From positions 124,001 to 188,000 of the forward strand of contig JAKIWI010000005.1 in NCBI GenBank assembly GCA_022750115.1: a stretch of 64,000 nt of DNA, in the 5' to 3' direction. Below, in pieces: positions 2,252 to 47,151 of the stretch. This stretch comes from Thermoplasmata archaeon. GTDB taxonomy: Archaea; Thermoplasmatota; Thermoplasmata; Lutacidiplasmatales; UBA184. A program made the translations under genes and the position numbers. The stretch's first letter is position 1, and each line of letters opens with the position of its first letter. The notes beneath the pieces are model-generated. The model saw nothing but the letters and a program-made list of their open reading frames with translations. It ran no database searches and had not been told where the DNA came from.

Positions 2252-5200
2252 GCCCGGCCTCCGGGCGAGGGACGGGCCAACGTCCGTCCGATCCGCGTGC
2301 ACGCGGACGCCCTCAAGCGGCGGATCGCGAGCCCCGCGACGAGCCCCGCAACGCCCCCGAGCACGCCCAGGAGGACCCAGGTCCCGGTGTTGGCCCAAAC
2401 GCTGGTGGACGTGGCCACCGCCCCCACGACCGGGTGGAACGAGGCGAACTCGGTCAGAGGGGCTCGTACGGTGAGGTTCGTCGCCGAGAGGTTTCCCGTA
2501 TAGCTGCCGGTCCCAGAACCGGACCAGTTCGCGAACACCTGGCCCGCCGACGGGACGGCCTCGAGGCTCACGGTCGCCCCGAACGCGTACCATCCGGAGC
2601 CCGGGGTCTCAGTCCCGCCCGCCGAACCAGCGATCGTGACCCAGTCGGACGGCGGGCCGAAGTCGACGACCTTGGTGACGTTCCCGGTGACGTCGACGGT
2701 GAACGATGTCGGGGTCGGCCCCCAGCGAGAGAGGCCGTCGGGCGAAGCGGCGCGCGAGACGTTCGCGGTGTACGAGTTCGGCGGGAGGCCGGTCACGTTG
2801 AGCGAAGAGCCGATGGCGGCGTAGCTCGTGGACCCGAGGGTCACGCTCCACGTGGTCCCGGCCGGGAACGCGACGGACGAGGCGAACGCGACCGAGTACA
2901 TCGGATGCGGCGTCGGGGCGGGAAGCTCGAACATCGCGAGCTCGCTCACCGGTCCGCCCGCTTGGATCCCCGTGACCGCGAGCGCCCCGCTGTAGGCACC
3001 CGGCCCGACCCCCGTCCAACCCGCGAACGAGTAGCCTGCGTCCGGTTGGGCCACGATCCGGACGACCTCCGTCGGGCTCGCCCACACCGAGGTCTGCGAG
3101 ACGGCAAGCGTGTCGGAAAGGTAGACCTGGCCGCCGAGCGTGGCGGCGGCGGTGACCTCGTACTGCGGCGCGAACGTCAGCGGCTGGATCGTGCCGCCCG
3201 ACGTGCAGAACTGGGTCGGCGGGTTGACCGGGACGTAGCGGGTCGCTCCGCTGGCGGTCGCGTAGGCGACCCCGACCGATTCTTGGTACTGCCCGGCGAT
3301 ACCGGCGCCGCACGACAGGAGGTTGGGGACCGTGAGGGAGGTCGAATTCGACGAGTACCCGACCCCGTTCAAGTCGACCGTCCACCACGTCCCCGCCGGG
3401 ATACCGGTCTCGTCGAAGGTGACGTTGAACCGGGCGTTGGGCAGCGGGTAGAAGCTCGCCGTCTCGAGGATCGCTCCGCCGACGGTCACGTTCGCGGTGG
3501 GGTTCGTCCCGGTGTAGGACCCCGTGCCGGTTCCGGTCCATCCGAGAAAGCCGTATCCGGGATCCGGGCCCGCGGTGAAGCTCGCGGTGGACCCCGGCGA
3601 CAGCCACTCCGAACCGGCGCCGGTCGCAAACCCACCGAGCCCGGCGACGACCTGCACCTGGTAGGCCGCGGTGTAGGTGATGTTCACCGTCTGCCCCGGG
3701 ACGACCGCGATCGGGCTCGCCGCGGCGGCCGGGACGAACCCGGTGGAGCCGTTCGACGCGACGGCCGGACCGGCGAGCCAAGGGAACGTTCCGGGGTGGG
3801 TGGTGATGTTCAGCCACGGCGTCGAGGAGCTATAGTCGGTGCCGTTGAACGCGACCGACCAGACGGTTCCGGTCCCGACACCGAGGGCGTGGAACGTCAC
3901 GGGCCCCGAGGCGGCCGCCAGGTCCACGAGCGCGAAGTCGAACGTCACGCTCGGCTGGGCGGGGACGACGACGGTGTTCGAGCCGCCCGCGACCCAGCCG
4001 AAGTACTCCCAGCCGGGCGTCGAGGAGTTCGCCCGGATGTCCGAGACGGTGTACCCGCCCGTGGCGACGTCCGGCACGTAGGTCCAGTTCGGCGCGGGCC
4101 CGCCGTAGCCGGTCCCATCGAAGGTGAACGAATAGCGTGAGGTCGCCGGCAACCCGGTCGCCTGGAACCCTTCGGTGTAGACGCCGTAGGTCCCCGCCCA
4201 ACCGGTCTCGTTCACCGCGCTGCCCAGCGTCAGGTTCAGGCCGCTCGGGGCGCCCGTGACGCTCCCGACTCCGGAGCCGTTCCAGTAGCTGAACGGCGGG
4301 CTGGAATCCAACTGGAACGACAGCGTGACGTTCGCCGGGAAGTACCAGGGGAACGACGGTCCCGAGTAGACGTTGCCGAAGAACGTCTCGATGAAGTAGA
4401 ACGTCCCCCGGAAGAACATGCTGATCTCGGGGTTCGCCCCCGAGAACGATGTGAGCGTTGGTTCGATCCAGAGCTGAAGCCCGTACTCGGCCGTAAAGTT
4501 CACGTCGACGGTGGACGGCCCGGTGAACTCGGCGGGCGACCGGATCGAGAGGCCGGTCACGTACTCCATCCGGTAGCCGGTCGGGGCCTCGGGGAGGACA
4601 GCGATCGGGAACGCGAGGTGCTCGGGGACGTTCGCGAGCACGATCGACGACTGGTTGCTGGTGATCGTCCGAGCGTCGAACGAGATTCCCCAGGTCGTTC
4701 CCGCCGTGAGGTTGTGCTCGACGAACGTCACATTCGTCGTTGGGCCCGTGTACTGGTAGGCGATCGAGACGTTCGTCCAGAAGTCCTCGGTGAGCACGAA
4801 CGGGGGTCCGCCCGCGCCGAACGACACGCTGTAGGCGCCCGGGAGCACCGTCGCGGCGACCGGGAGGCCGCCGGGGGAGATGGTCACCGACGATTGCCAC
4901 CCCTGGAAGTCGCTCGCGATGTACGGCGAGCTCCCGTAGGAGGCGATGCCGGCGAAGGTCGAGCTCCACGTCGACCCGTTCGTGGCGCTCGCCACCCAGG
5001 AGCTCGCCGTCCCGTCGAAGCCGGCGCAGCCGCTCGACGAGAAACAGAAGGTGCCGTTCAGCCAGACGTAGGCCACGTAGGCGATGGACCCGGAGAGGGC
5101 GATCCCGGGGGAGTAGAAGTTGTCGTCGTTGCCGAGGCTCGTGTCCGACGCGATCGAAGTGTTGACCCACGTCGTCCCGCCGTTCGAGGAGTACGCGGCG

Positions 5201-9698: not shown

Positions 9699-10064
9699 AT
9701 GCTTCGGACTATTCGCAAAGAGAATGCGGAGCTCGCGCACGTCCTGGTCGCGCTTCGCAAGGCGGCCAAGGCCAACGACGCACCCCTCTGGGGCGCCGTG
9801 GCCGAGAAGCTCTGCCGGCCCCGCCGTCAGTCAAAGCCCGTCAACGTCGGTCATCTCGAGCGGCTCGCCAAGCCCAAGGAGACCGTCGTGATTCCCGGAA
9901 AGCTCCTCGCCCACGGGCACCTCTCGAAACCGATCACCGTGGCCGCCTTCCACTACTCCGAGGACGCCCGCACGAAGATCCATGCGGCCGGCGGGACCGC
10001 GCTCAGTATCCACGACCTCCTGAAGGCGAATCCCGATGGGACGGGGGTCCGCCTCCTTGCCTGA
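9699..10064 (+). CDS. rpl18e: large ribosomal subunit protein eL18 (L18e)
   Basis: This 121-residue protein has the normal archaeal L18e length. It contains the family signature RRQSKPVNVGHLERLAK and the end AAGGTALSIHDLLKANPDGTG. It binds 23S rRNA in the large subunit. The start at 9699 (MLRTIRKENAEL) is preferred over in-frame upstream ATGs because it matches the family N-terminus and fits the TATA spacing. It is the first gene of the conserved archaeal L18e-L13-S9-RpoN operon, and its last 29 bases overlap the proposed L13 start. Confidence 0.95.
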   Translation: MLRTIRKENAELAHVLVALRKAAKANDAPLWGAVAEKLCRPRRQSKPVNVGHLERLAKPKETVVIPGKLLAHGHLSKPITVAAFHYSEDARTKIHAAGGTALSIHDLLKANPDGTGVRLLA

Positions 10065-42690: not shown

Positions 42691-44232
42691 CTACACGATG
42701 GGCGTCAGCTTCGCGTGCGGCGCGCCCTTCTCCGGGTCCGGAGAGATCGCGTAGATCGTCGTGCGCGGCCGGATGCCGTAGATGCACGGCGCGTTGTCGA
42801 TGTTGATGATCCGGAAGTACGTGTCCATCATGTTCAGGATCTCGCTCGATACGAGGAGGCCCGGCTTTAGGAGCCCGATCCCGAGGTTGCCGACCAGCTT
42901 CGTGCGGCGGACGCCGTGGAAGTACATCCGGATGGCGACCTGGTCGCCCATCAGGCTCTCGAGCGTGTCGAACGCGGTGTACTCGAGGAACGGCTTCTGC
43001 TCGGGCCCGCGCGCGGCCTTCTCGGCCGTGACCATCGCGCGCATCGCCTCGTCGCGGCCGTAGCGCGCCATCGGCACGATGTAGCTCTCCTCGGTCTCGT
43101 TCGCCGTGTAGTCGGCGATCCGCACGCGCGTGTCGAAGATGTTCGGCGGCGTGTGGCGCACCAGCGTCTCCCGGAGCTTCTCGTGCGACTCGCCGGCGGC
43201 GAGCACCGCGATGATCCCGCGCGACTGCGTGAGGAAGTTCAGGAACGTCGGCGTGAACAGCATGTAGTAGTCGTCGATTCCGACGTTCACGTCGACCTCG
43301 AACGCATTGAAGCTGCCGCGCTTGAACCCGCCGCCCAGGAGGGCGTCGAAGTCCGGGATCCCCGTCGAGTAGTGCTTGTCCGGGTCGGCGACCGGGTGCC
43401 AGACCGGCGAGGACTGCAGCGCTCCCGGCGCCGAGGAGAACCCGAGCGCCTCGAACCGGCCGTTGGAGAGGGTCACGGCGTACCGGGGCCGCTGGATGTT
43501 CGTCGCGCGCAGCTTCTCGAGCCGCATGTGGCGGACGCGCCGCTCATCGAGCTCCTCGCGCTGGATCGAGATGAGGCCGTCGACCAGGTACTCGATACCG
43601 CCCGCCTCGGGCTTCTCGAGGATCATGACGACGTTCGTGTTGGAGCTCTCGACGAGATCCTTCTGGAGCGCCATCACGAACTCTTCCATCTCGAGTCCGT
43701 ACTTGTGGGTCACACCCTCGAGGGAGTCGATGACGAGCAGCGACTTCTCCGGGAGCGCCTTCTCGACCCGGTTGTAGACGTTCTCGACCTCGGGCATCGG
43801 GTTGCGCTTCATCAGCGCGGTGAGGTGCGTGCGGTCCACACGGGTCGGGGCGCCCCGCTCCTCGTCGAACGTCCGCATCACGTCGCGGGCGGCGCGAATC
43901 TTCTTCTGCTCGGACTCGGGAAGCTCGGCGACCGCGCCCTTCGGGGCGGCGTTGATCGCATCGAGGAACAGCTTGCCGGCGTCGAGGATACGCGCGCGCA
44001 TCTCGGTCGCCTTCAGCCAGGGGAACTGGCGGTAGAGCGCCTCGTCCCCGACTCGGGTCGAGAGGTAGTAGGACTGCTGCGGCTTCCCGACGCGCTCGAG
44101 CAGCTCGAGGCCGAACGTCGTCTTTCCCGTACCCGCGCCACCCTTGACGATCAGGGAACGGCCGCCGCGGCCGGAGAGGAAGGCGAGAACTTCGGGCGGA
44201 ACGCCCCCCGTCCGCTTCGGCTCCTCCGCCAT
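42691..44232 (-). CDS. KaiC/GvpD-like RecA-superfamily ATPase with a degenerate second domain
   Basis: This 513-residue protein starts at the ATG at 44232 (MAEEPKRTGG); a GTG two codons upstream is the alternative. The N-terminal domain has Walker A VKGGAGTGKTT near residues 30-40 and Walker B LLVIDSLEGV. The second half starts like a KaiC domain (YSTGIPDFDALLGGGFKRGSF), but the position of the P-loop reads FEVDVNVGIDDYY, so it cannot bind nucleotide conventionally. It resembles archaeal GvpD/HTR-like or KaiC-like signalling ATPases. The function is unknown; it lies downstream of alaS on the same strand. Confidence 0.8.
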   Translation of the reverse strand: MAEEPKRTGGVPPEVLAFLSGRGGRSLIVKGGAGTGKTTFGLELLERVGKPQQSYYLSTRVGDEALYRQFPWLKATEMRARILDAGKLFLDAINAAPKGAVAELPESEQKKIRAARDVMRTFDEERGAPTRVDRTHLTALMKRNPMPEVENVYNRVEKALPEKSLLVIDSLEGVTHKYGLEMEEFVMALQKDLVESSNTNVVMILEKPEAGGIEYLVDGLISIQREELDERRVRHMRLEKLRATNIQRPRYAVTLSNGRFEALGFSSAPGALQSSPVWHPVADPDKHYSTGIPDFDALLGGGFKRGSFNAFEVDVNVGIDDYYMLFTPTFLNFLTQSRGIIAVLAAGESHEKLRETLVRHTPPNIFDTRVRIADYTANETEESYIVPMARYGRDEAMRAMVTAEKAARGPEQKPFLEYTAFDTLESLMGDQVAIRMYFHGVRRTKLVGNLGIGLLKPGLLVSSEILNMMDTYFRIINIDNAPCIYGIRPRTTIYAISPDPEKGAPHAKLTPIV

Positions 44233-44394
44233 CAGCACGCCTCGGGTACTGCGGAAGGTGACCGCTTGCGCTCGTTCATTCGTTCCAACCGAGACGAAAT
44301 GGTCGTGTCCGGAAGGTAAAGGTTTCGCCGGGCCGGGCCTACCGCGGCGGCCGCGAGAGCCGTTCGCCGATGGAAGCTCGCGGTTCGCGTCGGA

Positions 44395-44413
44395 GGGGAG
44401 AATATTTCTCCCC
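44395..44413. terminator. hairpin GGGGAGAA/TTCTCCCC after alaS
   Basis: Perfect 8-bp arms (44395-44402 and 44406-44413) with a 3-base loop lie 53 bases downstream of the alaS stop on the minus strand. It could end or stabilise the alaS message or act in the leader of the KaiC-like gene. Confidence 0.5.
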
Positions 44414-44420
44414 GCGCGAA

Positions 44421-44446
44421 GGCGCGCGTCGTTCTGGGCGCGCGCC
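44421..44446. terminator. second hairpin GGCGCGCG/CGCGCGCC after alaS
   Basis: Perfect 8-bp arms flank a 10-base loop, 7 bases from the first hairpin and 20 bases after the alaS stop. The tandem pair separates alaS from the KaiC-like gene. Archaeal RNA 3' ends do not require hairpins, so the role is inferred from position. Confidence 0.45.
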
Positions 44447-44466
44447 AGCGCCGCCGGGCGGGGCGA

Positions 44467-47151
44467 CTACGAGGCGATCCCGGCATCGCCACCGTCGGGC
44501 GGCGGTGGCGGTGGGGGCGGGGGTGGAGGCGGAGGTGGCGGAGGGGGGGGCGGAGGCGGAGGGGGAGGGGGCGGCTGGACGGCCGGCGCCGCGGCGGCCA
44601 AGGCGGACGCCGATGCCGTCGCGGCCGCGAGCGCGGACGCGAGCGGCGCCCCCGGTTCGCCGACGGCGGTGGCCGCCGATGGATTCCCGCCACCCCGGCC
44701 CTCGAACGTGGACCGCGCGGATTCGAGGACGCTCAACGCCGAGACGCTCTCGGCCGAAGAACCGACGAACAATGTTCCGCGTCCCTCGACCTCGGCGGCC
44801 AGGATGGCGACGCGATCCGGGGCTTTCGTGATCAATCGGGACAGCTCCATGAGTTCGGAGCGCGGAAGGTCGACCTTCGCGGTCGCGATGGTGACGGAGC
44901 CCGACTTCACCGTCGCGTCGGCATTGAGGAGGAGCTTCTCCGCGCGGCTCCCGAGCGACTCGCGCTCCTCGAGGCGGCCGCGTTTGCGCCACGCCTCGAC
45001 CTCGAGCTGGAGCCGTTCGATCCCCTGCGCGACCTGGTCCGGCGCGACGTTCAGCGCGCGCGCCGCCCTCGTCAGCGCCTCGGACCGGTGGTCCACGATG
45101 TCGAGGGCGCGCTCGCCCGCGGCGTACGTGAGGCGGACGACGCCGTCCTGGATCCGCTCGGTGGCGAGGATGGTCACATAGCCGACCTCGCTCGTGTGCG
45201 TGCAGTGCGTCCCTCCGCACGCTTCGACGTCGAAATCGGGGATCTCGATGAGGCGGAGCTCGCGGCCCGGGACCGCGCCGCCCTGGTAGAGCGTGAATCC
45301 GAACCGCTTCTCCGCCTCGGTCCGGATCTCGAAGTAGCTCTTCACCGGCCGGTCCTCGCGGACGACGGCGTTGACGAGCCGTTCGACCTCGCGGATCTCC
45401 TCGGGGGACAGCGAACGGAAGTGGGTGATGTCGATGCGGGCCGACTCGACGCCCTTGTACGCTCCCGCCTGCCAAACGTGCGGACCGAGGACGTGGCGCA
45501 GCGCCCCGTTCAACAGGTGCGTCGCCGTGTGGTGCTGCATCAGCTGGGTCCGCCGGTGCTGGTTGATCTCGCCGCGCACCCGGTCGCCGACGTGGAACGG
45601 ACCGGGGACCTGCAGCTTGTGAACGACCCACGGGCCGCGGCGAAGCACCTCGACGACGGCGCTATCTCCGAGATGTCCCGTGTCGGTGATCTGGCCGCCG
45701 CCGGTCGGGTAGAAGTAGGTTCGGTCGAGGACGACGGTGGAGCCCGCGGCGAACACGACGTGCGCCTCGAACGAGAGCGTGTACGGGTCGAGGTAGTACC
45801 GGACGTCGGTCGGGGGCGTCTCCGGAGGGATCTCCGGACCGGTCGTCGGCGTTTCGACGTAATCGGTGCGGGCCACGCCGGACTCGTGGCGCTTCGCGAC
45901 CCGCGCGTAGAAGTCCTCGGGGACGGGGATCGGGGTCTTCAGCGACTCGACGGCGAGCTCCGGGGGAAGCCCGAGTGAATCGTACCACGCGACGAGGTCG
46001 TCGACGGTGATGGCCTTCCCTCCGGCGACCGCGCGCTCCTCCTGTCGGCGGACCTGCTCGCGGGCGCGGTCGATCGCCTCGCGGTAGCGCTCGACCTCCG
46101 CCTCGACGACGAGATGGAGGTCGTCACGGTGCTCCCCGAGCTCGGGGAAGTCGACCGCCTGGTCGCGGCCCGCGCGGTCGAGGACGGCCGTGATCTCCGG
46201 CGCCTCGGGGGTCTTGTCGAGGATGCGGAGCATCCGCCGGATGAGGAGGCGGGCGAAGTAGCCCTCCTTGCTGTTGGACGGCACCACGCCGTCGGTGATC
46301 AGGAAGTTGAGCGCGCGGGCGTGGTCGAGGAGGATCGCGGACTCCTCGGGGTTGAACGTCCGTCGGACCTCCTCGAACGCCTCACCGAACACGGCCTCGT
46401 AGGCGCTCCGAGTTCCCTGCGACATCCAGACGAATCGCTCGAGGCCGTAGCCGGTGTCCACGACGGTGAGCGGCATCGGCTTGACCGCACCGCCCTCCCG
46501 GATGTACTCCATGAACACGAGGGTCGCGAGCTCCATGCCCAGCAGGCCCACCGAGAGCGACGGGCCGAGGTTGCCCCCACCCTCCCACTCCTCTTCCTTG
46601 TACGTGATTCCCTTCGGGTCGGCGCCGAGCTCCACCGTGAGGAGCTCGTGGCACAGTTCGACCGTTCGGTCCTTGAAGTAGACATCGTGGTCGGGTCGGT
46701 TGAAGGCGTGGTGCGCCATCATCTCGAACTCGGTGAAGTGGCGGCCGGAGCGGCCGACCTCGTCGAGGTCGATGAACCGCAGCGACGGCTGCGAGATCGT
46801 CAGCGGGTTCGCGGGGGGCGGGATCGCCCCGCTGGTCACCCACGGCTGGAAGTCGTAGATGCTCGCCTGCGTGAAGAACACGTCGTTCCGCCACCGCGCG
46901 ACCGTCGGGTAGCGGCGGAGGCGCGTGTGGCCGCGACGCTCGAAGAACCCGAGGTACAGCTCGCGCATCTCGCGGAGCGAGTAGGGCTGCTTGAATCCGG
47001 GGTGGCCGATGAACGCGTAGGGGACGCAGGGAGCCTCCTGACAGGCCGTGTGGTCCCCGAGCGTCCAGAACCACGAGCCGCAGCTGGTGCACGTCCGGCG
47101 CTGGAACCCCTCGCGACGAAAGAACGCGAGGTCGTACTCGGAGGGGTCCAT
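44467..47151 (-). CDS. alaS: alanyl-tRNA synthetase with a 26-proline C-terminal tract
   Basis: This 894-residue archaeal-type AlaRS has the archaeal N-terminal cysteine region (TCTSCGSWFW, CQEAPC), the class II catalytic core, and an editing domain with HHTATHLLN (540-548) and CGGTHC (645-650). The coiled region and DHHA1 part follow (VAILAAEVEGRGTLFVG). Instead of ending at the DHHA1/C-Ala helix, it continues with an Ala-rich segment (about 825-858). Then come 26 uninterrupted prolines (about 860-885) and DGGDAGIAS. All four proline codons are used (9 CCG, 7 CCC, 6 CCT, 4 CCA), which argues against recent slippage of one repeat unit. Synthesis of such a tract would need aIF5A. Confidence 0.95.
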   Translation of the reverse strand: MDPSEYDLAFFRREGFQRRTCTSCGSWFWTLGDHTACQEAPCVPYAFIGHPGFKQPYSLREMRELYLGFFERRGHTRLRRYPTVARWRNDVFFTQASIYDFQPWVTSGAIPPPANPLTISQPSLRFIDLDEVGRSGRHFTEFEMMAHHAFNRPDHDVYFKDRTVELCHELLTVELGADPKGITYKEEEWEGGGNLGPSLSVGLLGMELATLVFMEYIREGGAVKPMPLTVVDTGYGLERFVWMSQGTRSAYEAVFGEAFEEVRRTFNPEESAILLDHARALNFLITDGVVPSNSKEGYFARLLIRRMLRILDKTPEAPEITAVLDRAGRDQAVDFPELGEHRDDLHLVVEAEVERYREAIDRAREQVRRQEERAVAGGKAITVDDLVAWYDSLGLPPELAVESLKTPIPVPEDFYARVAKRHESGVARTDYVETPTTGPEIPPETPPTDVRYYLDPYTLSFEAHVVFAAGSTVVLDRTYFYPTGGGQITDTGHLGDSAVVEVLRRGPWVVHKLQVPGPFHVGDRVRGEINQHRRTQLMQHHTATHLLNGALRHVLGPHVWQAGAYKGVESARIDITHFRSLSPEEIREVERLVNAVVREDRPVKSYFEIRTEAEKRFGFTLYQGGAVPGRELRLIEIPDFDVEACGGTHCTHTSEVGYVTILATERIQDGVVRLTYAAGERALDIVDHRSEALTRAARALNVAPDQVAQGIERLQLEVEAWRKRGRLEERESLGSRAEKLLLNADATVKSGSVTIATAKVDLPRSELMELSRLITKAPDRVAILAAEVEGRGTLFVGSSAESVSALSVLESARSTFEGRGGGNPSAATAVGEPGAPLASALAAATASASALAAAAPAVQPPPPPPPPPPPPPPPPPPPPPPPPPPDGGDAGIAS

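Follow-up and report, generated by a model that had tools for sequence, protein, structure and literature searches.

The closest relative of known structure for the enzyme analysed here is the alanyl-tRNA synthetase (AlaRS) of Archaeoglobus fulgidus (3wqy, 2zvf). Consecutive prolines are known from another aminoacyl-tRNA synthetase, ValRS, in which a universal proline triplet lies in the active centre (PMC5811046). PPP motifs are reported to be generally infrequent in archaeal proteomes (PMC4218817), and the ribosome stalling that consecutive prolines cause is relieved by EF-P/IF5A (PMC5811046, PMC6105217). C-terminal tails of low complexity have been described for prokaryotic translation-related proteins; those of ribosomal proteins are mostly rich in Ala, Glu or Lys, and a larger number of protein interactions is reported for terminal low-complexity regions (PMC6821194). 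The C-terminal tails of the GroEL family, about 24 residues following the folded domains and with a polyproline-II tendency, are of Gly/Met or mixed composition and are reported to bind client proteins (PMC12571646).

The AlaRS encoded in the window, i.e. the whole 64,000-nucleotide stretch of DNA that was analysed, shares with the A. fulgidus enzyme the domain order, the TIGR03683 match, the C-Ala fold and the terminal alanine-rich helix. It differs from that type of archaeal AlaRS in that the enzymes of its clade add 12-26 prolines past the last helix. Like the prokaryotic low-complexity tails, this addition is compositionally simple, C-terminal and attached to a translation-related protein, but it is a pure proline homorepeat, found in one clade and carried by an aminoacyl-tRNA synthetase. 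It is similar to the GroEL tails in size, position and presumed polyproline-II tendency, though not in composition, and unlike the ValRS triplet it lies outside the fold. Among the literature matches listed, none reported a polyproline tail on AlaRS in the title or the start of the abstract, and the word 'proline' was not found in the available part of the paper describing the Lutacidiplasmatales (PMC9287336).

The C-terminal end of AlaRS and its surroundings

Over its whole length the protein matched the NCBIfam model of archaeal alanine--tRNA ligase, TIGR03683, with 932.1 bits (cut-off 744.7). The Pfam families PF01411 and PF07973 were matched over their cut-offs, and DHHA1 remained under its own (21.4 vs 25.9). 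The catalytic, editing (SAD) and C-Ala parts follow one another in this order, the last being recognized by structure, and the best relative in the PDB was A. fulgidus 3wqy (E 4.4e-192). Residues 677-894 were modelled with AlphaFold2 from 50 aligned sequences (mean pLDDT 94.9); high pLDDT also covers part of the proline run but is no evidence of a fixed structure there. These 50 sequences came from 69 full proteins, of which 18 did not have the cutting anchor and one near-duplicate (L027) was dropped. The best Foldseek match of the modelled region was the A. fulgidus C-terminal dimerization domain 2zvf (E 1.6e-10).

The first-pass annotation had described an AlaRS ending in 26 consecutive prolines after an alanine-rich segment. 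The number of prolines, their position and their codons (9 CCG, 7 CCC, 6 CCT and 4 CCA) were exactly confirmed. The tract is near the C-terminus but does not form it, as a nine-residue peptide and the stop codon come after it (Table 1). The order of the two segments was also right, but the alanine-rich stretch is not an extra element: in the model it forms the last helix of an ordinary C-Ala dimerization domain, and its counterpart was seen by eye in the C-termini of tail-less relatives. The alanine-rich segment was thus ruled out as a portion of the added tail. Nothing has been added to AlaRS but the linker, the 26 prolines and the nine residues after them.

Table 1. Features of the alaS region, in window coordinates
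Feature	Position	Strand	Basis or remark
alaS, archaeal alanyl-tRNA synthetase, 894 aa	44467..47151	minus	ORF; TIGR03683, Pfam and PDB matches
C-terminal part including C-Ala, residues 677-854: long helices followed by a globular alpha/beta domain	44590..45123	minus	AlphaFold2 and Foldseek
Alanine-rich segment, last C-Ala helix, residues 835-854	44590..44649	minus	helix H159-178 of the model
Short linker APAVQ, residues 855-859	44575..44589	minus	neither helix nor strand in the model
26 proline codons, residues 860-885	44497..44574	minus	codon reading
End peptide DGGDAGIAS, residues 886-894, then stop	44470..44496	minus	missing from both sister genes
ORF with glycine run	44144-45181	plus	antisense image of the proline tract
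Palindrome GGGGAGAAATATTCTCCCC	44395-44413		8-base perfect arms, 3-base centre
Block CGAAACCTTTACCTTC	44312-44327		upstream of the KaiC/GvpD-like gene
GvpD/KaiC-like gene adjoining alaS	42691-44238	minus	matches GvpD P-loop, KaiC ATPase and GvpD basic region 2

Two short sequences were observed downstream of alaS. With as many as 3 mismatches allowed, the palindrome GGGGAGAAATATTCTCCCC, placed between alaS and the next gene, matched nowhere else in the window except on its own reverse strand. Neither sister genome shows this palindrome in the spacer behind alaS, which is much shorter there up to the following block. A near-identical copy of the CGAAACCTTTACCTTC block is found in both of them closely behind the alaS stop; as far as its sequence and position go, the block is perhaps the promoter of the KaiC/GvpD-like gene.

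Distribution, age and codon composition of the tail

The relatives belong to the Lutacidiplasmatales, acid-soil Thermoplasmata known from metagenome genomes, including Ca. Lutacidiplasma silvani AcS3-62, the type of Lutacidiplasmatales, which originates from pine-forest soil (PMC9287336). The window genome was placed in this group since it has the genus label in common with these relatives and its AlaRS is 83% identical to that of AcS3-62. The survey of AlaRS ends covered all 78 genomes available for the genus and yielded 77 distinct C-termini, 74 of them with a stop on the contig; the 3 that run off their contigs were left out, and the Altiarchaeales-like outliers L112, L113 and L116 lie outside the survey.

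In the window genome the tail consists of 26 prolines followed by DGGDAGIAS, in L. silvani of 17 prolines followed by E, and in AcS1-3 of 12 prolines with the stop directly after. The tail is therefore present in all three complete alaS genes of the clade, i.e. those of the window genome and of its two closest relatives in which the gene is complete, and it was found in none of the other 71 distinct complete C-termini, where the longest run was 4 (L064) and the others did not exceed 2. In a fourth clade member, AcS13-54 (L094), alaS is cut by the contig end after 519 codons. The genome G005, which could be a further member, gave an N-terminal AlaRS piece only (160 residues, 84% identity), and its end was not found. 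A search for plasmid-borne AlaRS returned at least 100 records, all with less than 60% identity among the matches listed.

The three tailed genes grouped with a support of 100 in a tree that was built from 69 AlaRS proteins after truncation at residue 840, and hence without the tail. Placed on this tree, the tail requires one change, a number as low as which was obtained in 0 of 500 shuffles.

The three tailed AlaRS proteins are 83-84% identical to each other. At fourfold-degenerate sites outside the tail their genes differ by 41-43%, compared with 51-54% against an outgroup gene, so the third bases are near saturation. Pairs with the partial fourth alaS (519 codons) differ at 44-54% of these sites, equal to pairs with the outgroup. 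The proline identity of the tail is therefore old. Its length is labile: 12, 17 and 26 residues in close relatives, with the residue constant. The earlier proposal that the proline sequence is kept agrees with the 17- and 12-proline tails of the sister genes, which persist despite these fourfold differences.

The codon composition of the tails differs from that of the remaining parts of the same genes. Proline codons ending in A or T make up 10/26 of the tract and 2/50 of the rest in the window alaS (Fisher p 2.2e-4), 8/17 and 1/51 in L. silvani (p 3e-5), and 4/12 and 4/50 in AcS1-3 (p 0.04). Summed over the three species, all 55 tail codons encode proline, and 22/55 end in A/T vs 7/151 elsewhere in these genes. 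Five further in-frame proline tracts from the window genome were compared: three had the same enrichment (8/15, 5/15 and 3/7), and two short ones (1/8 and 1/7) did not show it, the reference being 2/81 in the alaS body and neighbouring gene. The proline codons of the KaiC-family gene (see below) outside its tract took an intermediate value (28/158), which indicates that relaxed codon preference in a low-complexity protein is part of the A/T enrichment. Survival of mixed, less-slipping tracts and slow decoding are further possible contributions.

The L. silvani tract contains a repeated 12-base unit, its longest repeat spanning 7 codons (p 0.001 vs shuffled codons), which means that expansion does occur. 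No excess of internal codon repeats over shuffled codons was found in the AcS1-3 tract (p 0.35-0.49) or in the window tract (p 0.89-0.98), and recent expansion is thus not visible in the latter. The mixed codons had been read earlier as a sign of a kept sequence rather than a recent expansion; this stands for the window genome, but expansion has had its share in the history of the tail. As the window tract was chosen for its purity, an argument for selection drawn from purity is unbiased only for the sister tracts.

Proline runs in other proteins of the clade

The alaS tract was the longest of the CCN tracts of at least 7 triplets found in the assembly of the window genome, the next having 15, 15 and 14 triplets. 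The 14-triplet tract lies in a 39-aa proline frame under a longer overlapping frame and is probably not read as proline. The AlaRS tail is also the longest of the proline runs seen in the clade.

Pure runs were found in two further protein families, both selected by the runs in the window genome, whereas the other clade members were not so selected. A KaiC-family protein (PF06745) with a proline-rich tail had longest proline runs of 15, 19, 12 and 13 in all four clade genomes and of 5, 3, 5, 4, 3 and 3 in the six sisters, although the proline content of the tail overlaps (0.17-0.30 in the clade, 0.16-0.25 in the sisters); the reading frames of two genes from the clade and of one from the sisters (444 residues) left the DNA examined before reaching a stop, and one clade gene contains N letters. 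In the four clade genomes the C-terminus of an SPFH protein (PF01145) reads KKKTPPPPPP, KKKTPPPPP, KKRPPPPPP and KKKTPPPPP (5-6 prolines). Its ends in six of six sisters are of mixed sequence, with no run above 4 in the last 80 residues and RRRPPPPAP as the nearest approach; G039, where the protein had no match, and G028, where it had just a weak one, contributed no end to this comparison. In these two proteins, then, the clade has pure runs at places where the sisters have proline-rich but mixed sequence. The KaiC-family and SPFH runs lead us to read the AlaRS tail as a habit of the lineage and not as a special device of AlaRS.

In sampled DNA, in-frame runs of at least 6 prolines numbered 5 in 1.00 Mb from the clade, not counting alaS, which lay in one of the stretches, and 0 in 0.98 Mb from five sisters with comparable GC (0.67-0.70), with frames assigned by third-position GC; the difference is of only moderate significance (binomial p 0.033). 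CCN tracts in any frame numbered 19 in the clade and 5 in the sisters in the same stretches. All five clade runs came from the first 0.60 Mb sample, and a further 0.40 Mb added none. One of the five is an SPFH tail, so this count and the SPFH evidence overlap. The sampled contigs were long ones already known from matches and, in the window genome (G000), known to carry CCN tracts; since the second G000 sample (contig C10) begins at position 10001, a 15-proline tract at 3779 lies outside the counts.

Several other proteins with proline runs were observed. In a small ORF (L172 2420-2899, G000 C10:3419-3898) a run of 15 prolines immediately precedes a zinc-ribbon-like CxxC...CxxC end; the ORF matched no Pfam family, had a full-length match in the window genome alone among the ten searched, and gave short weak matches in four of the nine others. 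A Toprim-domain protein (L171 1877-3403), presumably DnaG-like, has an 8-proline run within a proline-rich stretch. An 818-aa ORF (L225, G010 C28) contains 12 prolines near the N-terminus, followed by repeats that are Kelch-like by eye.

Origin and possible role of the tail

With moderate confidence, and on a small evidence base of three complete clade AlaRS, four KaiC-family genes and four SPFH ends, the AlaRS tail is taken as one case of a clade-wide expansion of proline homorepeats, duplicated by units, held to proline and forming an exposed rod beside C-Ala. It would have been gained once, most simply in the ancestor of a small Lutacidiplasmatales clade, on an ordinary archaeal AlaRS. Duplication of short CCN units would have lengthened proline-rich ends, aIF5A would relieve stalling at the tract, and non-proline point changes would be purged while synonymous and length changes are tolerated. 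The tail may be an exposed polyproline-II rod or a disordered spacer, lying away from the surfaces used for catalysis, editing and dimer formation; at the polyproline-II rise of about 3.1 A per residue, 26 residues correspond to roughly 80 A. Its benefit, as we infer it, would be weak or general (solubility, spacing), with no AlaRS-specific switch. A role particular to AlaRS, as had been suggested in the first-pass annotation, is not supported, given the unconserved length, the tail-less C-termini outside the clade and the runs in the KaiC-family and SPFH proteins.

It is doubtful that the rod docks AlaRS on a partner (the ribosome, a membrane SPFH complex or a KaiC-like hub) by means of a binding module common to the tailed proteins. 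Polyproline-II helices often serve as ligands for docking, and in both AlaRS and the SPFH protein of the clade pure proline is found at the C-terminus or within nine residues of the end, as would suit such binding; the interactions reported for terminal low-complexity regions (PMC6821194) are also in its favour. Against it, the tails differ more than twofold in length and have nothing but proline in common. WW and SH3_1 domains over the Pfam cut-off were found in none of eight genomes (four clade, four sister). The window genome gave one SH3_1 match under the threshold (15.2 bits vs cut-off 22.9, E 0.041), which would fit a binding module, but the test is weak, as it covered two polyproline binders out of several (EVH1, GYF and profilin being others) and sub-threshold matches occurred in control genomes too. 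A proline-run 'code', in which the runs of AlaRS, the SPFH membrane-type protein and the KaiC-family ATPase are read by one putative polyproline-binding protein, is highly improbable. If true, it would anchor AlaRS at a complex of the membrane or of signalling, in a eukaryote-like manner that had arisen independently in a non-Asgard archaeon.

A purely neutral, microsatellite-like tail, in which slippage makes CCN units and proline is not selected, is unlikely. The labile length, the 12-base tandem unit in one species, the several unrelated proteins affected and the GC-rich genome (0.695 in 200 kb) would all be expected of such a tail. It is opposed by the purity of the tail codons in three species with thoroughly mixed third bases: given ten independent third-base changes, the chance that none hit bases 1 or 2 is (1/3)^10, about 2e-5, an estimate weakened by the copying of variant units and by the choice of a pure tract.

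Regulation dependent on translation, also proposed in the first-pass annotation, would mean that ribosomes stall on the tract immediately ahead of release, making AlaRS output dependent on aIF5A/hypusine status. This is very unlikely, in spite of the known stalling on consecutive prolines and the enrichment of the tract in codons rare in the gene body. In its favour, aIF5A, with the GKHG motif read in each case, and two genes of the deoxyhypusine-synthase family (PF01916, both over the cut-off; L182-L189) were found in each of the four clade genomes. However, the tract comes after the complete enzyme, with 9, 1 or 0 codons left before the stop; its length varies, and runs also occur in unrelated clade proteins. 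No RNA element or terminator-like site was found at the alaS 3' end: no Rfam family reached its gathering score around alaS, and the RNA surrounding the tract showed no better folding than shuffled versions of it (z -0.82, with 42 of 200 as good). A clade-specific change in the aIF5A loop was rejected as an enabler, the sequence SKPGKHGEAK being present in 18 of 18 aligned proteins (4 clade, 14 sister; one of the 15 sister genomes gave no match). As the loop is identical in sisters without an AlaRS tail, it does not explain the difference between the clade and its sisters.

That the tail is an artefact of assembly or frame has next to no probability, even for a draft assembly of 27 contigs (90.4% complete) and with N letters following the AcS1-3 KaiC-like tract as a sign that such tracts can disturb assemblies, since proline tails with differing codon orders and lengths stand at the same place in three assemblies and the reading frame is maintained through the alaS tract, in which a frame error is unlikely as judged from the codons, a one-base slip in its C8 run leaving non-proline codons on one side.

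The favoured reading of the tail as part of a clade-wide proline expansion carries the caution that a striking tail on one enzyme need not be that enzyme's device. The clade with its pure runs in several unrelated proteins, one of them an essential synthetase, set against sisters of similar GC with mixed sequence, offers a natural test of the origin and purity of proline runs, and also of how far aIF5A can carry them.
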